From positions 1 to 52,795 of the forward strand of contig JAHHHO010000038.1 in NCBI GenBank assembly GCA_019359315.1: a stretch of DNA of 52,795 bases. The letters run 5' to 3'. Numbering within the stretch: position 1 is the first letter of the stretch; each line of letters begins with the position of its first letter. Below the pieces are notes generated by a model that worked only from the letters and a program-made list of their open reading frames with translations, searched no databases and was not told where the DNA came from. The stretch comes from Myxacorys californica WJT36-NPBG1. GTDB lineage: Bacteria > Cyanobacteriota > Cyanobacteriia > Leptolyngbyales > Leptolyngbyaceae. Shown piece after piece: positions 21,028-49,911 of this stretch. A program made the translations under genes and the position numbers.

Positions 21028-21759
21028 TCACCTTCCAGCGTCGATCGAAATAACAATAACGGTGATGTTATCGCGTCCGCCCCGGTCTTTAGCCGCGTCA
21101 ATCAGAGCCAATGCTGCTTTCTCACAGACCCGAATCGACTCTAATTGGGTGGCGATGATTTGATCAGACAGTTCTTCAGTCAGTCCGTCTGTACACAGCA
21201 GGATGCGATCGCAGGGCTGCACCTCAATCGGCTGAATGGCGACGGGCTGGAGGTCTTCTCGCCCCAAACATTGGGCTAACACATGCCGCCACGGATGCGA
21301 TCGCGCTTGCTCAGGGGTGAGTTCTCCTAGCTGCACCGCCCGTGCCACCCAGGTATGGTCTTCTGTCAGTTGCTGTAATGTCGCGTCTCGCAGCCGATAT
21401 AGCCGAGAATCTCCAACATGAGCGCAGAGCGGTTGCTCATCTCGAAACATCAGAACAACCAGCGTCGTACCCATATCAGCGCGCTCTGGATGCTGAGTTT
21501 GATCGTTTAGAATGGCTTGATTTGCCTCTAAAATCGCTTTTTCCAGGAGTTGTTCAGACGGAATCTCAGAATTCCAATACTGGGTAAGAAACGTTTGAAT
21601 GACTTCTGTAGCAATGCGGCTAGCTTCTTGCCCCCCTGCGTGTCCACCCATACCATCTGCCACCACAAAAAAGCGCCCATCAGAGTCAATAACGTAGGAA
21701 TCTTGATTGGCAGAGCGGACTAACCCGGTATCGGTCATCCCGGTAAAAAGGCGTTTCAT
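21028..21759 (-). CDS. PP2C-family serine/threonine protein phosphatase
   Basis: A soluble 243-residue PPM phosphatase of the bacterial PrpC/Stp type, which removes phosphate from Ser/Thr using two or three Mn/Mg ions. Metal and phosphate motifs are present in order: RSANQDS, VVADGMGGHAGG, GDSRLYRL, TDGLTEEL and GGRDNITVIVI. The start MKRLFTGMTDTGLVRSANQD is typical. It is the last of a minus-strand group containing an ABC1 kinase and a kinase-like protein, which suggests a shared phosphorylation role. Confidence 0.95.
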   Translation of the reverse strand: MKRLFTGMTDTGLVRSANQDSYVIDSDGRFFVVADGMGGHAGGQEASRIATEVIQTFLTQYWNSEIPSEQLLEKAILEANQAILNDQTQHPERADMGTTLVVLMFRDEQPLCAHVGDSRLYRLRDATLQQLTEDHTWVARAVQLGELTPEQARSHPWRHVLAQCLGREDLQPVAIQPIEVQPCDRILLCTDGLTEELSDQIIATQLESIRVCEKAALALIDAAKDRGGRDNITVIVISIDAGR

Positions 21760-21865: not shown

Positions 21866-23773
21866 CTAGGGCATTCGATCGTAACGATCTAGCTTCAGCA
21901 TCAGTCGAATAAGCGCTACCCCGCTAATCAAGGCAGCAACGGCGGGAATCGTCGCGGCCCAGGCAAGCTGGCTCACAAGCAAGATGGTCGCTGATATCGT
22001 AAAAGCACAAGTCAACAGCGTGTAGTTTGTGCCCATGTTGACCCCACTGATGCGGCGCAACACCCGGTCAGTTTCCGTCGATCGCACCCGCACCCGGATA
22101 TCCCCCCGCTCTAACTTATCAAGCGTGTCTTCGATCCGACGCGGTAATCCAAACGCCGTGTTGCCAACCTGCACGGCTTGCCGACCTAACTCGTTGATGA
22201 TGCTACTTCCGGCTTCTGAAGAATTTCCATTGGTCATAAGCTGCATTGCAAATGGTCTTGCAACCTCCATAAAGTTGAATTTTGGATCTAGCCCTTTGCC
22301 TACCCCTTCAAGGGTGGAGAACGCTCTCATGACGAAGGTAAACGTCGCTGGAAACCGGAACGGCTGACCGTAGGCAACTTCATACAAATCATCGCTAATG
22401 GCTGAAATGGACTGGTCTTCAAAAGGCTTGTCCATGAAATTGTCCAGCATAAACTGGACAGAACGACGCACCGGACCCATATCCTCGGCAGGAGCCAGCG
22501 CGCCGAGATCGATTAGCGATCGCACCACACGGTCAGCATCTTTCTGAGCAACGCCAAAAAAGGTATCCAATAGGCGTTCGCGAGTGACGGGTTGAATCTG
22601 TCCCATCATGCCGAAGTCGTAGAAAATCAGATTGCCATCGGGACTGACGGCAATGTTGCCAGGGTGGGGATCGGCGTGAAAGAACCCATTAGTTAATAAT
22701 TGATGGAGATAGGCTTCTGCTCCCAGGTTCGCAAGGCGGCTGCGATCGAGCCCTGCTGCTTCTAAAGCTTCGTAGTGACTAATTTTAATCCCCGGTAGGT
22801 ATTCCAGCGTCAAGACTCGCGGCGAAGCATAGCGCCAGTACACTCTTGGCACATGTACCCAGTCATGCCCTCGGAAGTTGCGTCGGAAGGTATCTGCGTT
22901 GCGACCTTCATTCAAGTAGTCAATTTCTTGCCAAAGAATTTTGCAGCATTCCTCATAAATGCCTGACCAGTCGCGACCTTTGCCCCACTCTGGGTGACTC
23001 TGAAAATAGCGAGCAATGCCTTTGAGAATCTGGAGGTCAATCTCGAATAATTTTCGGAGTCCGGGGCGTTGAACCTTGACAACGACTTCTTCACCAGAAT
23101 GTAACTGCGTTCGGTGCACCTGTCCTAGACTAGCGGCAGCTAAAGGAATCGGGTCGAAGCTGCGATACAGATCCTCAACAGATTTTCCTAAATCTTGCTC
23201 AATGATTGCCGCCGCCTGCTCGTAGCTGAAGGCAGGCACCCGATCTTGTAGTTTAGACAGTTCTTCAACAAACTCAATGGAAAATAAGTCAGCACGAGTT
23301 GAGAAGAGTTGTCCAAGCTTAATGAAAGTTGGTCCAAGATCAAGCAACGTTTCTCGAATCCAACTAGCTAAGGTTCGTCGCCGCTCAGCTTTGCTAGCGT
23401 CAGTCATGCCTCCCCGATAGCTCCAAGACTTGTTGTAGAGCCATCTAGCCGCCATCAGTTTCAGCACAAACGACCAAATATCGATATACCGACGCTGTTT
23501 GGAGTAGCTTTCTCGACTCCAACGATAAGCCTTCGCACGACGAGCTTGACCCCTCACTTGGCGTTTGGTGGGCAATCCGCTGGGGTAATCCGATAGTGGC
23601 ACTTGTGGCTCAGTCAGCAGATCTTGCTCCACTGTTTCAAACGGCGGCGTTACTCTGAGGTGCTTGCCATTGTCTTCGGCATGCTTAAGCTGCGAGTCAG
23701 CGCTCACAGGCAGATCTGCTGAGTGCTGAGAGGGGCTGGAGTCATTAGAAGAAACAGACACTCGACTTTCCAA
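21866..23773 (-). CDS. ABC1/AarF (UbiB/ADCK) family kinase-like protein
   Basis: The 635-residue protein has a disordered N-terminus (about 1-85), then the ABC1 core: the KxGQ motif in LGPTFIKLGQLFSTRADL, the Ala-rich loop AAASLGQVHR replacing the glycine loop, VVVKVQRPGL, catalytic ADPHPGNI and YDFGMMGQ. Two C-terminal hydrophobic stretches (about 580-625) should anchor it in the membrane. Relatives act in quinone or prenyl-lipid metabolism in cyanobacteria and plastids (plastoglobule ABC1K proteins). Key residues are kept, so ATP binding is likely. It lies 64 bases after the DUF6825 gene. Confidence 0.93.
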   Translation of the reverse strand: MESRVSVSSNDSSPSQHSADLPVSADSQLKHAEDNGKHLRVTPPFETVEQDLLTEPQVPLSDYPSGLPTKRQVRGQARRAKAYRWSRESYSKQRRYIDIWSFVLKLMAARWLYNKSWSYRGGMTDASKAERRRTLASWIRETLLDLGPTFIKLGQLFSTRADLFSIEFVEELSKLQDRVPAFSYEQAAAIIEQDLGKSVEDLYRSFDPIPLAAASLGQVHRTQLHSGEEVVVKVQRPGLRKLFEIDLQILKGIARYFQSHPEWGKGRDWSGIYEECCKILWQEIDYLNEGRNADTFRRNFRGHDWVHVPRVYWRYASPRVLTLEYLPGIKISHYEALEAAGLDRSRLANLGAEAYLHQLLTNGFFHADPHPGNIAVSPDGNLIFYDFGMMGQIQPVTRERLLDTFFGVAQKDADRVVRSLIDLGALAPAEDMGPVRRSVQFMLDNFMDKPFEDQSISAISDDLYEVAYGQPFRFPATFTFVMRAFSTLEGVGKGLDPKFNFMEVARPFAMQLMTNGNSSEAGSSIINELGRQAVQVGNTAFGLPRRIEDTLDKLERGDIRVRVRSTETDRVLRRISGVNMGTNYTLLTCAFTISATILLVSQLAWAATIPAVAALISGVALIRLMLKLDRYDRMP

Positions 23774-23837: not shown

Positions 23838-24191
23838 CTAAGGCTGTTCTGAGCGACTGCGGTAAAGTTGTAACTGCGATCGCAGTTCGGCAATCTCAGC
23901 TCTTAGGTCATCAATTGTGGCCTGTAAGTCACTCGACGGGGTTCCGGCAAAGTCGACGACGGTTGTGCCTGGAGTAGCAGTTGCAGAGCGAGATTGCATC
24001 GCGATTTCTTCTTCGCGAGCAGCTCGCTCCATCACATCATCGACAAAATTCCGTAGATTTTCTCGCTGCTCGGCGTCAAACTTGCCCAATTCGCTGAGCG
24101 CTTCTGTGACGCCAGCCTCAACCTGCTCATACACGACCTCTGCGATCGCGCGACCCACAAAAAAGGCACGAAGTAAAGAACTATTATTCAT
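23838..24191 (-). CDS. DUF6825 family protein of cyanobacteria and plastids
   Basis: The 117-residue protein starts [23 protein letters not shown] (I use the ATG at 24191; the frame runs 8 residues further). The N-terminal half is a conserved helical region ([34 protein letters not shown]), and the end is a short coiled coil ([19 protein letters not shown]). I assign it to the DUF6825 family from memory of that pattern; the function is unknown. Its spacing to the ABC1 gene downstream suggests one transcript. Confidence 0.7.
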
Positions 24192-24316
24192 AAAAATTAT
24201 TCCAGCGCTGCCCAAATTATAGCTTGTTCCCGCTTAGGAAAGGGATGAAGGCTAAAGTAAGCAAAACCATTCTTTCATCCCTTATGTCTAGTTTAATCGA
24301 CCTCTAAAAGTCTTCT

Positions 24317-25978
24317 TCAGTTTCCAGTCACGCTCCTCGTGGGGGGTTCTGGTGCGCTCTCGCGCGACTCCAAATTAGAAGGATTGGTAGCAGGCGAAAC
24401 AGGAGCAACCGCAGGCACTTCGGGAGCCGTTGGCAATGGCGGTTCCACAGGAGAAACAGCTTTAGGAATAGGCTTGACTGGAGCGGGTTCGACTGGACGG
24501 TAGCGGGGTGTTTCTACAGGAACGGGAGCGCTGTCAAGCGGAGCAAGTTCGGTCTGTGGAGATGAAGGCAACGATCGCTCTAGTTCTGGTGCGCGCTGGA
24601 TAGGAGCCAGTTGGGTTGCTGGAACGTCTACTGAACCTTGCTCAGCTGAATTTGCTGGCATTGTCCAATCTGTGGTGGTAGGCGGCTTGCTGCCATAGCT
24701 CCCCGGCATCTTCTCTACAGGAATATCGCCTTGATCGACGCTTGGAGAAAGGGTGCCTTTCCAGGCGCGATCGCTAAAGGTTTGCGCGGGATGAAAAATG
24801 CTGGCTCCAGGCGCTTTAGCAGCACTAATTCGTAGGGCTAAGCCAAAGCCCAAACCTAAAGCGGTGGCAGTAGCTCCTGTAATCACCAAAAATTTCGGAA
24901 AGTGAGGGCTCATTCCAGAGTAAGCCGCAATCGGTTTTTGAGTGAGAGGTCTGGCAACAGGTGGAAGGGTCGGTTTGGGTGAAACGTTGAGCGTCGCCGC
25001 TGGTTGGGTAATTTTTAGGGGCGGCGGTGGGGGAGGAGTTTGAGGTGCTTTTACGACACTGGGTGCATTACTGGGTGCATTCTGTTTTACCACGTCACGT
25101 TCTACAACTTTAGGAGACGCTTCTCGTGGTGTCGCCATGGGAAGGGGTATGGGCTGTGAGACAGGACGAGGGGAGGATGTGGGCGCAGATGCAGCAGGGG
25201 AAGACACTCCGAGCAACGGCAGCGTCGTATTGGGTAGAAAACGCAGCCACTCCTCCACAGATTGCGATCGCAAGGCTGGATTCATCCCTTGCAAAATTGC
25301 TTCTTTAGTCGTGTCACTCCACGAATGCTGATCGAGCGACATCTGCGCGGTCGGAGCCTGACCCGATAATAAGTAATACAGAGTAACCGCGAGACCATAG
25401 CGATCGATCGCCGTCTGACTCTCAACGTCCCAATCTGGAGTAAATGGATTGATTTGAGTGGGGGGTAGGCTGGGACTAGCTAGATCATGAGCGAATCCAA
25501 AGCCAACCAGGATGGCAAGATTTGTTCCCTGACGCCGAATCAGCGATCGCGGTTGAATATTTCGGTGAATCAGTCCATTCCCATGTGCAACACTCACCGC
25601 AGAGCCAGCTTGCCGAATGTAATGAATTGCTTCGGCTTCTGCAAGCGCTCCATGCACAGAAACCAGCGTCGCTAACGCTTGACCTGACACAAATTCCATC
25701 ACCAGACAAGGAAGCTGGTCTTCTTCAAAGAAGTCTAAGACTCGAACGATGCTGGGATGCTGAGTTCTCGCCAACAGCCGGACTTCTTCGATAAATTCAG
25801 CCTTGAGCTGAGGAAAACTGCGAGTCACCTGCAAACTGGGGTCTAGTGTCTTGATGACGACTCCCTGATTAAGCAGAGTTTGGGTCGCTAGGTAAGTTGC
25901 TCCAACGCCTTCATCACCTAGCGCCTGGCTGAGCAGGTATTTCCCGTTCTGAAGGGTTGCACCCGGTTGTAGTTTCAT
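24317..25978 (-). CDS. catalytically dead Ser/Thr kinase-like membrane protein (pseudokinase)
   Basis: The first 250 residues are a protein-kinase fold: glycine loop LGDEGVGATYL, VIK43 lysine, and EEVRLLARTQHP helix C. The catalytic centre is lost: HRD is HRN (N140), the loop Lys and Asn are Gln142 and Ser145, and DFG is GFG (G159). The active kinase at 48343-49911 aligns position for position with D140, K142, N145 and D159. A Pro-rich linker (about 260-350), one membrane helix (about 363-383) and a long Pro/Ala/Glu tail follow. It probably works as a sensor, scaffold or regulator, not an enzyme. It contains the in-frame duplication NAPSNAPS. It is upstream of DUF6825, ABC1 and PP2C on the same strand. 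Confidence 0.9.
   Translation of the reverse strand: MKLQPGATLQNGKYLLSQALGDEGVGATYLATQTLLNQGVVIKTLDPSLQVTRSFPQLKAEFIEEVRLLARTQHPSIVRVLDFFEEDQLPCLVMEFVSGQALATLVSVHGALAEAEAIHYIRQAGSAVSVAHGNGLIHRNIQPRSLIRRQGTNLAILVGFGFAHDLASPSLPPTQINPFTPDWDVESQTAIDRYGLAVTLYYLLSGQAPTAQMSLDQHSWSDTTKEAILQGMNPALRSQSVEEWLRFLPNTTLPLLGVSSPAASAPTSSPRPVSQPIPLPMATPREASPKVVERDVVKQNAPSNAPSVVKAPQTPPPPPPLKITQPAATLNVSPKPTLPPVARPLTQKPIAAYSGMSPHFPKFLVITGATATALGLGFGLALRISAAKAPGASIFHPAQTFSDRAWKGTLSPSVDQGDIPVEKMPGSYGSKPPTTTDWTMPANSAEQGSVDVPATQLAPIQRAPELERSLPSSPQTELAPLDSAPVPVETPRYRPVEPAPVKPIPKAVSPVEPPLPTAPEVPAVAPVSPATNPSNLESRESAPEPPTRSVTGN
25058..25081. repeat. 12-bp in-frame tandem duplication inside the pseudokinase gene
   Basis: The unit actgggtgcatt occurs twice, encoding NAPSNAPS in the proline-rich linker. 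Confidence 0.9.
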
Positions 25979-35564: not shown

Positions 35565-37172
35565 ATGACGATCGCGCTGGATCAGCAAACGCATAGTGAG
35601 CATCCTTCAATTGACCCTTCAAAACCTTGTCGAAAAATCGGCATTCCTAAAGAGATTGCGACCAACGAATGTCGAGTCGCAGCAACGCCCGATACCGCAA
35701 AGATTCTTCAAAAATATGGGTTTGAAGTATGGGTTGAATCTGGGGCAGGAGATGCCGCTAATTTTTCTGATCAGGCTTTTGAAGAAGCTGGCTGTCACAT
35801 TGTTTCTGATCCCCAAACGCTATGGGCAGAATCAGATTTAATTCTCAAAGTTCGTCCTCCCGCTTGGCATTCTGGTGTGAACAAGCACGAAACAGAATTG
35901 CTGCGAGAAAACGGGACATTAATTAGTTTTATTTGGGCTGCCCAAAATGCTGAACTGGTGCAGCAACTTGCGAGTCGCAAGGCAACCGTTTTAGCGATGG
36001 ATGCAGTGCCGCGCATTAGTCGGGCACAAAAATTGGATGCTCTCAGTTCAATGGCGAATATTGCAGGCTATCGTGCTGTAATCGAAGCCGCCGAGCATTT
36101 TGGACGCTTCTTTACAGGGCAGATTACCGCTGCCGGAAAAGTGCCGCCCGCGAAAGTGCTGATTATCGGTGCAGGTGTGGCCGGATTGGCTGCGATCGGA
36201 ACCGCAAGAGGATTGGGTGCGATCGTTAGAGCTTTTGATACCCGTCCGGTGGTGAAAGAGCAAGTTCAAAGCATGGGTGCAGAGTTTTTAGAGCTTCAGT
36301 TTGAGGAAGACGGCTCTGGGGAAGGGGGTTATGCCAAAACCATGAGTCCCGAATTTATCAAAGCCGAGATGGAACTGTTTGCGGATCAAGCAAAAGACGT
36401 AGATATCATCATCACCACGGCACTGATTCCGGGCAAAAAAGCTCCGACATTGATCACGAGAGAAATGGTCGAGAGCATGAAAGACGGCTCTGTGATCGTC
36501 GATATGGCGGCAGAGCAGGGCGGCAACTGCGAAGTGACCAAGCCTAATGAAATCTACAAGTATCATGGCGTCACGATTATTGGATTAACCGATCTGCCGA
36601 GTCGGATGGCGTCGCAGTCGAGTCAGCTTTATGGCAAAAACCTATGTCACCTATTGGATGATATGGGCAGAAACGAAAACTACCGGGTTGATCTCGCCGA
36701 CGAAGTGATTCGAGGCGCGTTGGTGGTGCATCAGGGCGAAGTTATGCCGCCGCCGCCAAGACCTGCTGCCCCGCCTGCACCCAAACCCGCTACCGTTTCG
36801 TCTCAGGTCGAAACGCCTCAAGTGAGTCGGAAGACGCCTCAGTGGATCTGGGCAATTCTGATTGGTGCAGTGGTAGTAGGAATCGGCGCGATCGCACCTC
36901 CTTCATTCCTGTCTCACTTCACCGTCTTTGTTCTCGCCTGCTTTATTGGTTGGCAGGTGATTTGGAACGTTAAACCCGCGCTCCACACGCCTTTGATGAG
37001 CGTCACGAACGCCATTAGCGGCATCATCATCATCGGGGGAATGCTGCAAATTTCAGGAGCGCTGACGTCAGCAACGACAATTTTAGGCGCGATCGCAATT
37101 CTGGTTGGAACCATCAATATCGTGGGTGGTTTCTTGGTCACACAACGAATGCTCAAAATGTTCCAAAGATAG
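35565..37172 (+). CDS. pntA: NAD(P) transhydrogenase subunit alpha, undivided
   Basis: With PntB it moves hydride between NADH and NADP+ using the proton gradient, in the thylakoid or plasma membrane. The 535-residue protein contains the whole alpha subunit: NAD(H)-binding domain I (residues about 25-395, with [18 protein letters not shown] and [10 protein letters not shown]), a Pro-rich linker (about 392-420) and four membrane segments. Some cyanobacteria split this into two genes; here it is fused. The ATG has an aggagaag ribosome site. It lies 10 bases before pntB. Confidence 0.95.
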
Positions 37173-48342: not shown

Positions 48343-49911
48343 CTATTTCCTGCCTTTTCCTTTTCCATTACCTTTATCTTCCTTATCCTGTCCTTTTCCA
48401 CCTTTATCTTGTCCTCTCTTTTTTCCATGACCTTTGTCTTCCTTAGGCGGCTTTTCTTGCACCACTTGTGGTTCTGCCTGAGGGACGGCTTGTGATGGCA
48501 TCTCCGCTGGCTGGCTGGGTAAGGGTACAGGAACCGTTTGAATGGCAGACGAAGCGGGTGCGGATGATGGAGAAGGAATGGCAGACGGCGTACGAACAGG
48601 TGCAGACGAGGGAGAGACAGACAATGGAGGAACAGGAGAAGCTGGGATAGGAGAGGGAGGGGCAGAAGAGGCTGGAGTAGGTGTAATCAGCTCGACAGGG
48701 GGAGATGCAGCCGTGGCGGGTTTGGCCAGTGGTGAAGGAGAGACGGATGGTTTAGGTGAAGGAGAAGCGGCACGAGTGGATTGTATCGGAGTTGGTGGTT
48801 GTGATTCTTTAGGCTGTGGTTCTTTAAGTGATGCGGAGCCGATGGCGATCGCACCTAGAGTTGCGCCCGTTATACCTGCGATCGCGCCTAGCCGACGAGT
48901 GTTGCGTCTGCTCAACCAACCCTCAGAAGTCGAATCGCGATCGCTTGCCATTCCCTCTGAGGCAGCAGGCGCAGTGATGGGTCGCGTTGTTGCCATTCCT
49001 GCTACCGGCGTCCAGAGGACGGTTTCATCTTGAGCACCAGGCAAGAGGTCTAACCACTCATTCACATCAGCAGGACGATCGTGCGCTTCTAACGCCATGC
49101 CTTGCATCACTGCTTGATCTACCGCCTCACTCAATTCTGGACGCAACTGCCGCAGAGACAGCATCGGCTGGTTCTCCCTTGAAAGTACCTCGGTTGCATT
49201 GGTAACGGAGGTTGTGATTTTCTGGTTACGGGCTTCAATCTGGCAGCGCAAAATGGAAGCCATTGGAGTGTGTGCAGTCAGCAGCGCATAGAGGGTTGCT
49301 GCCAGAGCATAGATATCGGTAGCGGGTGTGCGCTTGGCTTGAGGCAAATATTGCTCAATCGGTGCATATCCCGACGAAATCATGCTGGTGTGAGTTTGAA
49401 TAATATCGGCAGCAAACTCTCTGGCGATGCCGAAATCGATGAGTACGACCGTTTGAGTCCCTTGGTGCAAAATAATGTTTTGTGGCTTGATGTCGCGGTG
49501 AAGCAATCCATGATGGTGAACCACTCGCAACGCTAATCCAATCTGGCGAATGTAATGAATTGCGATCGCTTCTGGTAAAGGATTGTTTGGCAACACCACC
49601 CGATCCAGCGTTTGCCCTGGTATGTAATCCATGACAATGTAGGCTTGCTCATCTTCGATGAAAAAGTCACTGATTCGGACGATGTTGGGATGGGTACACA
49701 AAGCTAACCGCCGTGCTTCATCCTGAAACTTTTGCTGGGAGTCTGGAAACGCGGAGGTGTTTCGCAAAGATGCGTTTAGAGTCTTGATGACAAAAGTTTG
49801 GTTGAGGTAGGAGTGGGTTGCTAGATAGGTGACACCAAAGCCTCCTCGCCCTAACTCTTCACCCAAGATATATTTTCCATCTTGAAGGGTTTTGCCAGTC
49901 CACGTGTCCAT
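48343..49911 (-). CDS. active Ser/Thr protein kinase with Lys/Gly-rich tail
   Basis: I start at [17 protein letters not shown] (522 residues). Kinase motifs are intact: [13 protein letters not shown]43, HRD140[14 protein letters not shown] (D159) and [12 protein letters not shown] with an APE-like site. Then come one membrane helix (about 345-365), a Pro/Ser/Ala-rich stretch (about 370-480) and a basic Lys/Gly/Asp tail (about 485-522). The tail, outside the membrane, may bind acidic polymers or the cell wall (inference). It is the best reference for the pseudokinase at 24317-25978, with which the kinase core aligns without gaps. Confidence 0.95.

Follow-up and report, generated by a model that had tools for sequence, protein, structure and literature searches.

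A probable membrane pseudokinase of Myxacorys californica and its single-copy cyanobacterial family with intact, half and absent kinase domains

The window, i.e., the whole stretch of 52,795 nucleotides from Myxacorys californica WJT36-NPBG1 analysed here (contig JAHHHO010000038.1), carries a gene for a kinase-like membrane protein of 553 amino acids. On the same strand, it is followed by the genes of a DUF6825 protein, an ABC1 atypical kinase and a PP2C phosphatase. The genes and the parts of the protein are as follows, with the evidence in brackets.

24317..25978, minus strand: putative membrane pseudokinase gene, 553 amino acids (open reading frame, alignment to paralogue, Pfam)
25688..25978, minus strand: N-lobe, residues 1-97, with K43 and E65 retained and Glu in place of Gly23; in the window's clade, this lobe is the more conserved one (alignment, model, clade comparison)
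25229..25687, minus strand: C-lobe, residues 98-250, with N140, Q142, S145 and G159 and a shortened activation segment and alphaG region (alignment, model, clade comparison)
24890..25228, minus strand: Pro-rich linker, residues 251-363 (composition; selection looser than on the kinase domain)
24833..24889, minus strand: predicted single transmembrane helix, residues 364-382, Gly-rich (hydropathy maximum)
24755..24802, minus strand: juxtamembrane segment, residues 393-408 (SIFHPAQTFSDRAWKG), the window's divergent form of the Q-x-F-P..W segment (segment comparison, profile)
24320..24754, minus strand: Pro-rich tail, residues 409-553 (composition)
23838..24191, minus strand: DUF6825 protein (PF20711), between the window gene and ABC1, absent from the initial annotation (Pfam, locus order)
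21866..23773, minus strand: ABC1 atypical kinase (PF03109), SpkI-like (Pfam, ABC1 scan)
21028..21759, minus strand: PP2C phosphatase, PphA-like (Pfam, solved relatives)
48343..49911, minus strand: paralogue with intact kinase motifs, 522 amino acids, used for comparison only (open reading frame, alignment)

The open reading frame of the initial annotation is present, as are the membrane helix and the long Pro-rich tail described there, both of which were found by hydropathy and composition. In Pfam, the protein matches kinase families only, with Pkinase (PF00069) at 84.6 bits against a gathering score of 31.7. Membership in the PASTA kinases (PknB/StkP) was rejected, as no PASTA domain was matched in Pfam and the NF033483 match of 100.4 bits lies below the cut-off of 450. 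An AlphaFold2 model of residues 1-262, built with 21 locus relatives, yielded a confident bilobal kinase fold (pLDDT 86.4, pTM 0.85). Foldseek returned PknA (4ow8, E 2.1e-16) as the best solved fold. By both profile and predicted bilobal architecture, the domain has a protein kinase-like fold.

Among solved structures, 5iti and 2j82, both tPphA of Thermosynechococcus, come closest to the neighbouring PP2C phosphatase (E about 1e-85, against 9e-41 for the next group). Judging from gene order and locus tags, the DUF6825 protein is probably the orthologue of sll1769/PG18. Sll1769 is given as the counterpart by homology of PG18 of plants, which is a protein of cyanoglobules/plastoglobules (PMC12923008). 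The orthology of the DUF6825 protein, if true, would link the phosphatase locus to lipid droplets. A promoter and terminator scan at the locus gave no excess over shuffled sequences (4 against a mean of 4.1 and 4 against 6.1) and no support for co-transcription. By eye, a 10-base perfect inverted repeat (AAGGGATGAA / TTCATCCCTT) without a T run was noticed at 24240-24283 on the minus strand, between the pseudokinase stop and DUF6825; it is a possible processing or attenuation site. Elsewhere in the window, the protein encoded at 35565-37172 on the plus strand resembles, by eye, a transhydrogenase alpha subunit and continues via a Pro-rich stretch into a membrane segment; it looks like a fusion of two subunits.

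The comparison with the paralogue at 48343-49911 defines what the window protein has lost. Residues 1-160 of the two proteins align without gaps, with 78 of 160 identical (BLASTP: 48% over 168 residues, 0 gaps, E 5e-50). As initially annotated, D140, K142, N145 and D159 of the paralogue are replaced in this ungapped alignment by N, Q, S and G, and K43 is present in both. The losses thus comprise the HRD Asp (now Asn, giving HRN), the catalytic-loop Lys and Asn, and the DFG Asp (now Gly). A further loss, beyond those annotated, concerns Gly23 of the glycine-rich loop, which is Glu in ten and Asp in one of the 11 proteins of the window's clade. No APE motif was visible by eye in the window protein. 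Its C-lobe is also shortened: the distance from DFG to the alphaF Asp is 33 residues, compared to 40 in the paralogue and a Microcoleus orthologue, and that from the alphaF Asp to the last Trp-Leu is 52 residues, where the paralogue has 87 and Microcoleus 64. The naming of this protein as the active paralogue held in part. Its motifs are intact, but its activity is predicted only, and a paralogue on contig C79 is nearer to the window protein by score (172.6 versus 164.1 bits). Every scored site is intact in the 11 distinct paralogues (12 rows in the site table, one protein having been entered twice), and in the tree these form the sister clade to the locus proteins.

Within the window's clade, the substitutions are conserved. 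N140 and G159 occur in 11/11 proteins, and position 145 is always S, T or A; position 142 is variable, with Lys in two. Since N140 and G159 recur throughout the clade and the Pkinase match lies far above its cut-off, the losses are not a matter of chance. Several other residues were kept in all 11 proteins, namely K43, the alphaC Glu E65, the HRD His H138, F160, G161 and the alphaF Asp D192. The clade also has fixed replacements of its own, e.g., G23E, R68L and R164H in 10-11 of 11.

Substitution rates were compared for the kinase domain and its surroundings. For the kinase domain, dN/dS is 0.09 between the window and its Myxacorys relative and 0.132, 0.072, 0.056, 0.086, 0.066 and 0.056 in six other pairs; six of these seven are near saturation (dS 0.89-1.55), the exception being the 0.072 pair with its low dS of 0.32, and an eighth pair had saturated dS. 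In the linker and tail, where constraint is looser, the finite values range over 0.11-0.37. As controls, the same Myxacorys comparison gave 0.051 for ABC1, 0.105 for PP2C and 0.031 for DUF6825, and a pair of intact paralogues gave 0.048. Mean pairwise identity in the window's clade is 0.782 in the N-lobe and 0.633 in the C-lobe, and the paralogues show the reverse (0.649 and 0.694). By these sequence measures, the kinase-like domain of the window's clade is under purifying selection. A pseudogene or a sequencing artefact is ruled out by the open reading frame, the substitutions common to 11 proteins and dN/dS well below 1.

Across the wider family, the catalytic state varies. The 53 scored locus rows retain K43 in 48, the HRD Asp in 28, the catalytic-loop Lys in 29, the Asn in 34 and the DFG Asp in 18; this set leaves out L068 and fifteen very diverged Nodosilinea-type rows (52-104 bits) that are too degenerate to score, and five of its rows (L043, L047, L050, L052, L065) have no ABC1 within the stretch covered (L, G, C and f numbers are our handles for loci, genomes, contigs and families). 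H138 and D192 are present in 53/53 rows, and K43, D140, K142, N145 and D159 are found together in 14/53. Even the very degenerate Nodosilinea form was modelled as a kinase-like fold (pLDDT 84.3, pTM 0.80; best fold PknA, E 3.2e-11). In a tree built without the catalytic columns, the 53 locus rows lie on one side of a branch (SH-aLRT 94) and the paralogues on another (99). At least six changes are needed for the state of the HRD Asp and at least seven for that of the DFG Asp. When faster rows are added, 60 locus rows need two changes, so that their monophyly is not clean; all trees were quick searches with SH-aLRT support only and contain several long branches.

The initial annotation had named orthologues with intact HRD/DFG motifs as evidence that would speak against a pseudokinase. 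Such orthologues were found: Microcoleus/Tychonema genomes have them at the corresponding position of the locus, and so do several other families. The pseudokinase assignment is strongly supported by sequence for the window protein and its clade and fails for the wider family, for which a uniform pseudokinase family is ruled out. Hence, the window protein appears to be one stage of a decay series, and catalysis probably matters in some lineages.

This series was followed in 78 genomes of the window's class, each with one gene carrying the transmembrane and juxtamembrane module. Full-length kinase domains with K43, D140, N145 and D159 occur in 19 of these genes, and 32 have a full-length but degenerate domain. 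Another 12, all of family f24 (L223-L228, L239, L240, L245, L248, L249, L252), have only an N-lobe, joined via a linker to the transmembrane helix and the juxtamembrane segment. Their kinase-profile match covers positions 1 to 95-104 of 301 in 11 cases and 1-51 in one, ending near the hinge, and the beta3 Lys is Q in ten and H in two. A kinase domain is missing altogether from 12 further genes. A six-frame search of the 2.2 kb upstream of these genes found no kinase remnant (best 0.2 bits); the three positive controls were recovered, and at L102 the search covered 579 bases only (best 0.7 bits). Three genes were left unclassified: in G041 the N-lobe frame is broken, in G043 the open reading frame begins at the contig edge, and in G154 the N-lobe is frame-shifted. 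At the latter locus (L251), the N-lobe lies in another frame upstream of the module frame, the frameshift being either real or an assembly error. The shortest forms belong to family f30 (L214, L268, L271, L272, L273), with open reading frames of only 84-99 residues that contain the transmembrane helix and the juxtamembrane segment. The one at L214 sits just before DUF6825. Mapped on a 92-row ABC1 tree, the kinase-less state must have changed at least six times, and well supported branches impose four of these changes; the count does not distinguish gain from loss. In f13 and f24, kinase loss is favoured over later gain because the genes without a kinase are placed there among those with a degenerate or half kinase. 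This reading is limited to those two families and is not extended to f9, f12, f19 and f30.

The transmembrane helix and the juxtamembrane segment are, at the sequence level, what the full-length, half and kinase-less forms have in common. The 78 genes were found with a module profile, so that their common possession of the module follows from the selection. The segment lies after the helix in many locus proteins and is close to Q-[ST]-F-P-P-x3-W-P. The strict pattern occurs in 54/78 locus rows and Q-x-F in 67/78; among the 11 paralogues and the 17 other Ser/Thr kinases of the genome, the strict pattern is absent (0/11 and 0/17), and Q-x-F is found in 0/11 and 3/17. Shuffled segments matched in 42 of 15600 cases. 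The 24 rows without the strict pattern include the window, nine Microcoleus-type rows, and L047 and L056, whose open reading frames end before the module. The window's own segment, Q399-T-F401-S-D-R-A-W406 (QTFSDRAWKG), is thus a miss. In a 36-row alignment, Gly18, Arg26, Gln42 and Phe44 are invariant, the rows having been chosen for carrying the segment.

Profile A4, which covers the transmembrane and juxtamembrane parts, matches the window protein with an E value of 8.3e-22, the window itself being one of its rows. Of the 146 class genomes, 79 contain a match, each in a single open reading frame, and one of these (G137) was set aside as chance; some of the matching genomes supplied rows of the profile. 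The resulting 78 is a lower bound, as A4 misses G134, G081, G052 and others in which the gene was seen otherwise. The profile also matches 48 of 58 relatives and 13 of 117 genomes drawn from the phylum, all 13 in the window's class, the 117 including an unstated number from outside it. Members with intact kinases differ: those of f25, f15 and f21 match well (E 4e-20 to 1e-15), and ten f26 genes (L241-L243, L247, L250, L262-L266), all of which lie more than 5 kb from ABC1, match weakly (E 6e-8 to 1e-3). The intact gene of the Microcoleus-type G134 and that of G081 were missed. In general, locus members with intact kinases, such as the Microcoleus-type ones, L208-L210 and L212, often have a weak or missing segment.

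The DUF6825-ABC1-PP2C neighbourhood of the module genes is common, not fixed. Loci were sought with 18 ABC1 sequences, and the 80 named ones that scored best were retained; DUF6825 is present in 79 of these and PP2C in 77. A kinase-like open reading frame lies upstream in 42 of the best 80, with DUF6825 in between in 42/42, an order that is partly a matter of definition since the region upstream of ABC1 is where the kinase-like frames were looked for. Eight of the remaining 38 have less than 3 kb upstream, and L102 has a kinase-less module gene. ABC1 was detected in 131 of 146 class genomes, and 10 of 40 further loci from these have a kinase-like frame at that place. The initial annotation had suggested that the protein might regulate its neighbours, the phosphatase or the ABC1 protein. 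In many lineages the order of the genes agrees with this idea, yet the distance to ABC1 is at most 5 kb for only 41 of the 78 module genes and 5-30 kb for seven more. By class, the genes within 5 kb are 22/32 degenerate, 10/12 kinase-less, 8/19 core-intact, 0/12 N-lobe-only and 1/3 unclassified.

Taken together, the window protein is most likely (probability roughly 0.55) a membrane scaffold or receptor subunit that acts without phosphorylation, via its transmembrane helix, juxtamembrane segment and N-lobe. The gene, present once per genome, would descend from PknB-type kinases and encode a cyanobacterial membrane protein whose kinase domain is followed by a single transmembrane helix. The working parts would be non-catalytic in the window's clade, the residues for phosphotransfer being gone and those supporting the fold retained. 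The constraint on the domain suggests that it is used, probably as a binding platform, and the weighting of conservation towards the N-lobe, together with the half-kinases of f24, points to this lobe as the likely docking part. The kinase-like domain would be cytoplasmic, with the pseudokinase, chiefly its N-lobe, docking a cytoplasmic partner. The juxtamembrane segment would lie in the periplasm or thylakoid lumen, where the transmembrane and juxtamembrane part may hold or sense another partner. First candidates for partners in the window's lineage are the DUF6825/PG18-like protein, ABC1/SpkI and the PphA-like phosphatase, a link to the neighbours that is weakened by the distances from ABC1, above all those of the N-lobe-only genes. 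The weak segment of many intact members and the miss of the strict pattern by the window's own segment count against the scaffold, and K43 and E65 in 11/11 would also fit nucleotide binding.

Indeed, the retained Lys-Glu pair is the reason to consider a nucleotide-binding switch, in which ATP would be bound via K43-E65 without phosphate transfer and the bound state would control the phosphatase or ABC1. The wide retention of K43 among the locus rows agrees with it. Nevertheless, the DFG Asp, which binds metal in active kinases, is Gly throughout the window's clade, the glycine-rich loop carries an acidic residue at position 23 in 11/11, and the N-lobe-only proteins (12/12) and kinase-less relatives lack the Lys or the whole domain. 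Such a switch is rather unlikely. The earlier idea that the protein senses ATP is thus possible in the window's clade and unlikely family-wide, K43 being replaced in 5/53 rows in addition to the 12 N-lobe-only and 12/78 kinase-less genes. Residual or atypical catalysis, by another phosphotransfer geometry or by AMPylation, is very improbable, as the HRD Asp, the catalytic-loop Asn and the DFG Asp are replaced together in 11/11 and the activation and alphaG regions are shortened. Unusual kinases do exist; WNG kinases, for instance, are active. Their lack of a glycine-rich loop has been described (PMC6442604), and SpkE of Synechocystis, which has no HRD Asp, is inactive according to one source (PMC2176072) and active according to another (PMC11863333).

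Neutral decay would make the kinase domain a passenger lost by drift, with function confined to the transmembrane and juxtamembrane part. The repeated changes of the kinase-less label on the ABC1 tree, whether gains or losses, and the intermediates, including half-kinases and very degenerate domains, are in line with this explanation. It is improbable in view of the domain's dN/dS of 0.056-0.132 in the window's clade, the clade's own fixed replacements, and the confident kinase-like fold of even the Nodosilinea form. More tentatively, and with some doubt, the conserved function of the family could be that of a short membrane module and not of a kinase. This module, made up of the transmembrane helix and an extracytoplasmic Q-[ST]-F-P-P-x3-W-P segment, would couple the thylakoid or periplasmic side to PG18, SpkI and PphA, a set with ties to lipid droplets and photosynthesis, where these are linked, and the kinase would be expendable and repeatedly removed. 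The route would lead from dead kinases through the N-lobe half-kinase to membrane proteins encoded in frames of 84-99 residues. If true, the family would document with unusual completeness how a kinase is turned into a non-enzyme in nature. The scaffold or receptor subunit remains the preferred reading for the window protein.

Bacterial pseudokinase families have already been described (PMC12599244). In the open-licence literature of PubMed Central, no description of the present series from kinase to kinase-less forms was found. Pseudokinases are usually studied as finished products, and here one single-copy family spans intact, half and absent kinases. A single comparative experiment could therefore address which part of a signalling kinase does the work once catalysis is dispensable. 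A pseudokinase is defined by the loss of at least one of the beta3 Lys, HRD Asp and DFG Asp (PMC12599244); the window protein has lost both Asp residues and retained the Lys. Among described families, ActPs3 comprises membrane-associated pseudokinases with lost catalytic motifs and deletions, many with a transmembrane helix C-terminal to the domain, and the pseudokinase domain of MviN is described as a recruiting platform (PMC12599244). The window protein resembles both in membrane association, motif losses and deletions. ActPs3 is marked by complete loss of the catalytic motifs and a deletion in the activation loop. Compared with this description, the motifs of the window protein are only partly lost, its activation segment is 7 residues shorter than that of the paralogue, and, in contrast to the primarily actinobacterial ActPs3, it retains the beta3 Lys and the alphaC Glu.

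The CP1 family of cyanobacteria and proteobacteria, about 40% of which are pseudokinases, has a similarly scattered loss of catalytic motifs within one family, but CP1 proteins are described as fused to COG3899 and without a transmembrane helix (PMC12599244). Membership was rejected, as the window protein has such a helix by hydropathy and matches only kinase families in Pfam. In GLW pseudokinases, GLW replaces HRD and a hydrophobic residue replaces the beta3 Lys (PMC12599244); with HRN and Lys43, the window protein is not one of them. The absence of the HRD Asp is shared with SpkE (slr1443), and a 2007 survey listed five cyanobacterial Ser/Thr kinases of this kind and excluded 17 incomplete ones (PMC2176072). 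PknB/PknA-type transmembrane Ser/Thr kinases, which rank high among solved relatives in sequence comparison and first in fold comparison, have the same order of kinase domain, linker and one transmembrane helix. Unlike these, the window protein lacks the catalytic residues and PASTA domains and, with the topology proposed above, would have a short extracytoplasmic segment and a Pro-rich tail.

The neighbourhood itself has a known counterpart. The Synechocystis sll1770 (SpkI) - sll1771 (PphA) locus contains an ABC1-PP2C pair of the same kind, for which the relevant parts of the source mention no upstream Ser/Thr kinase or pseudokinase (PMC11863333). There, SpkI is reported to matter for photosynthesis under salt stress and not to be needed for PII phosphorylation, and the PII kinase opposing PphA is reported as not identified (PMC11863333). 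The intact versions of the family would be new candidate partners of the PphA-type phosphatase, and the dead versions predict the lineages in which such a partner role must have gone.
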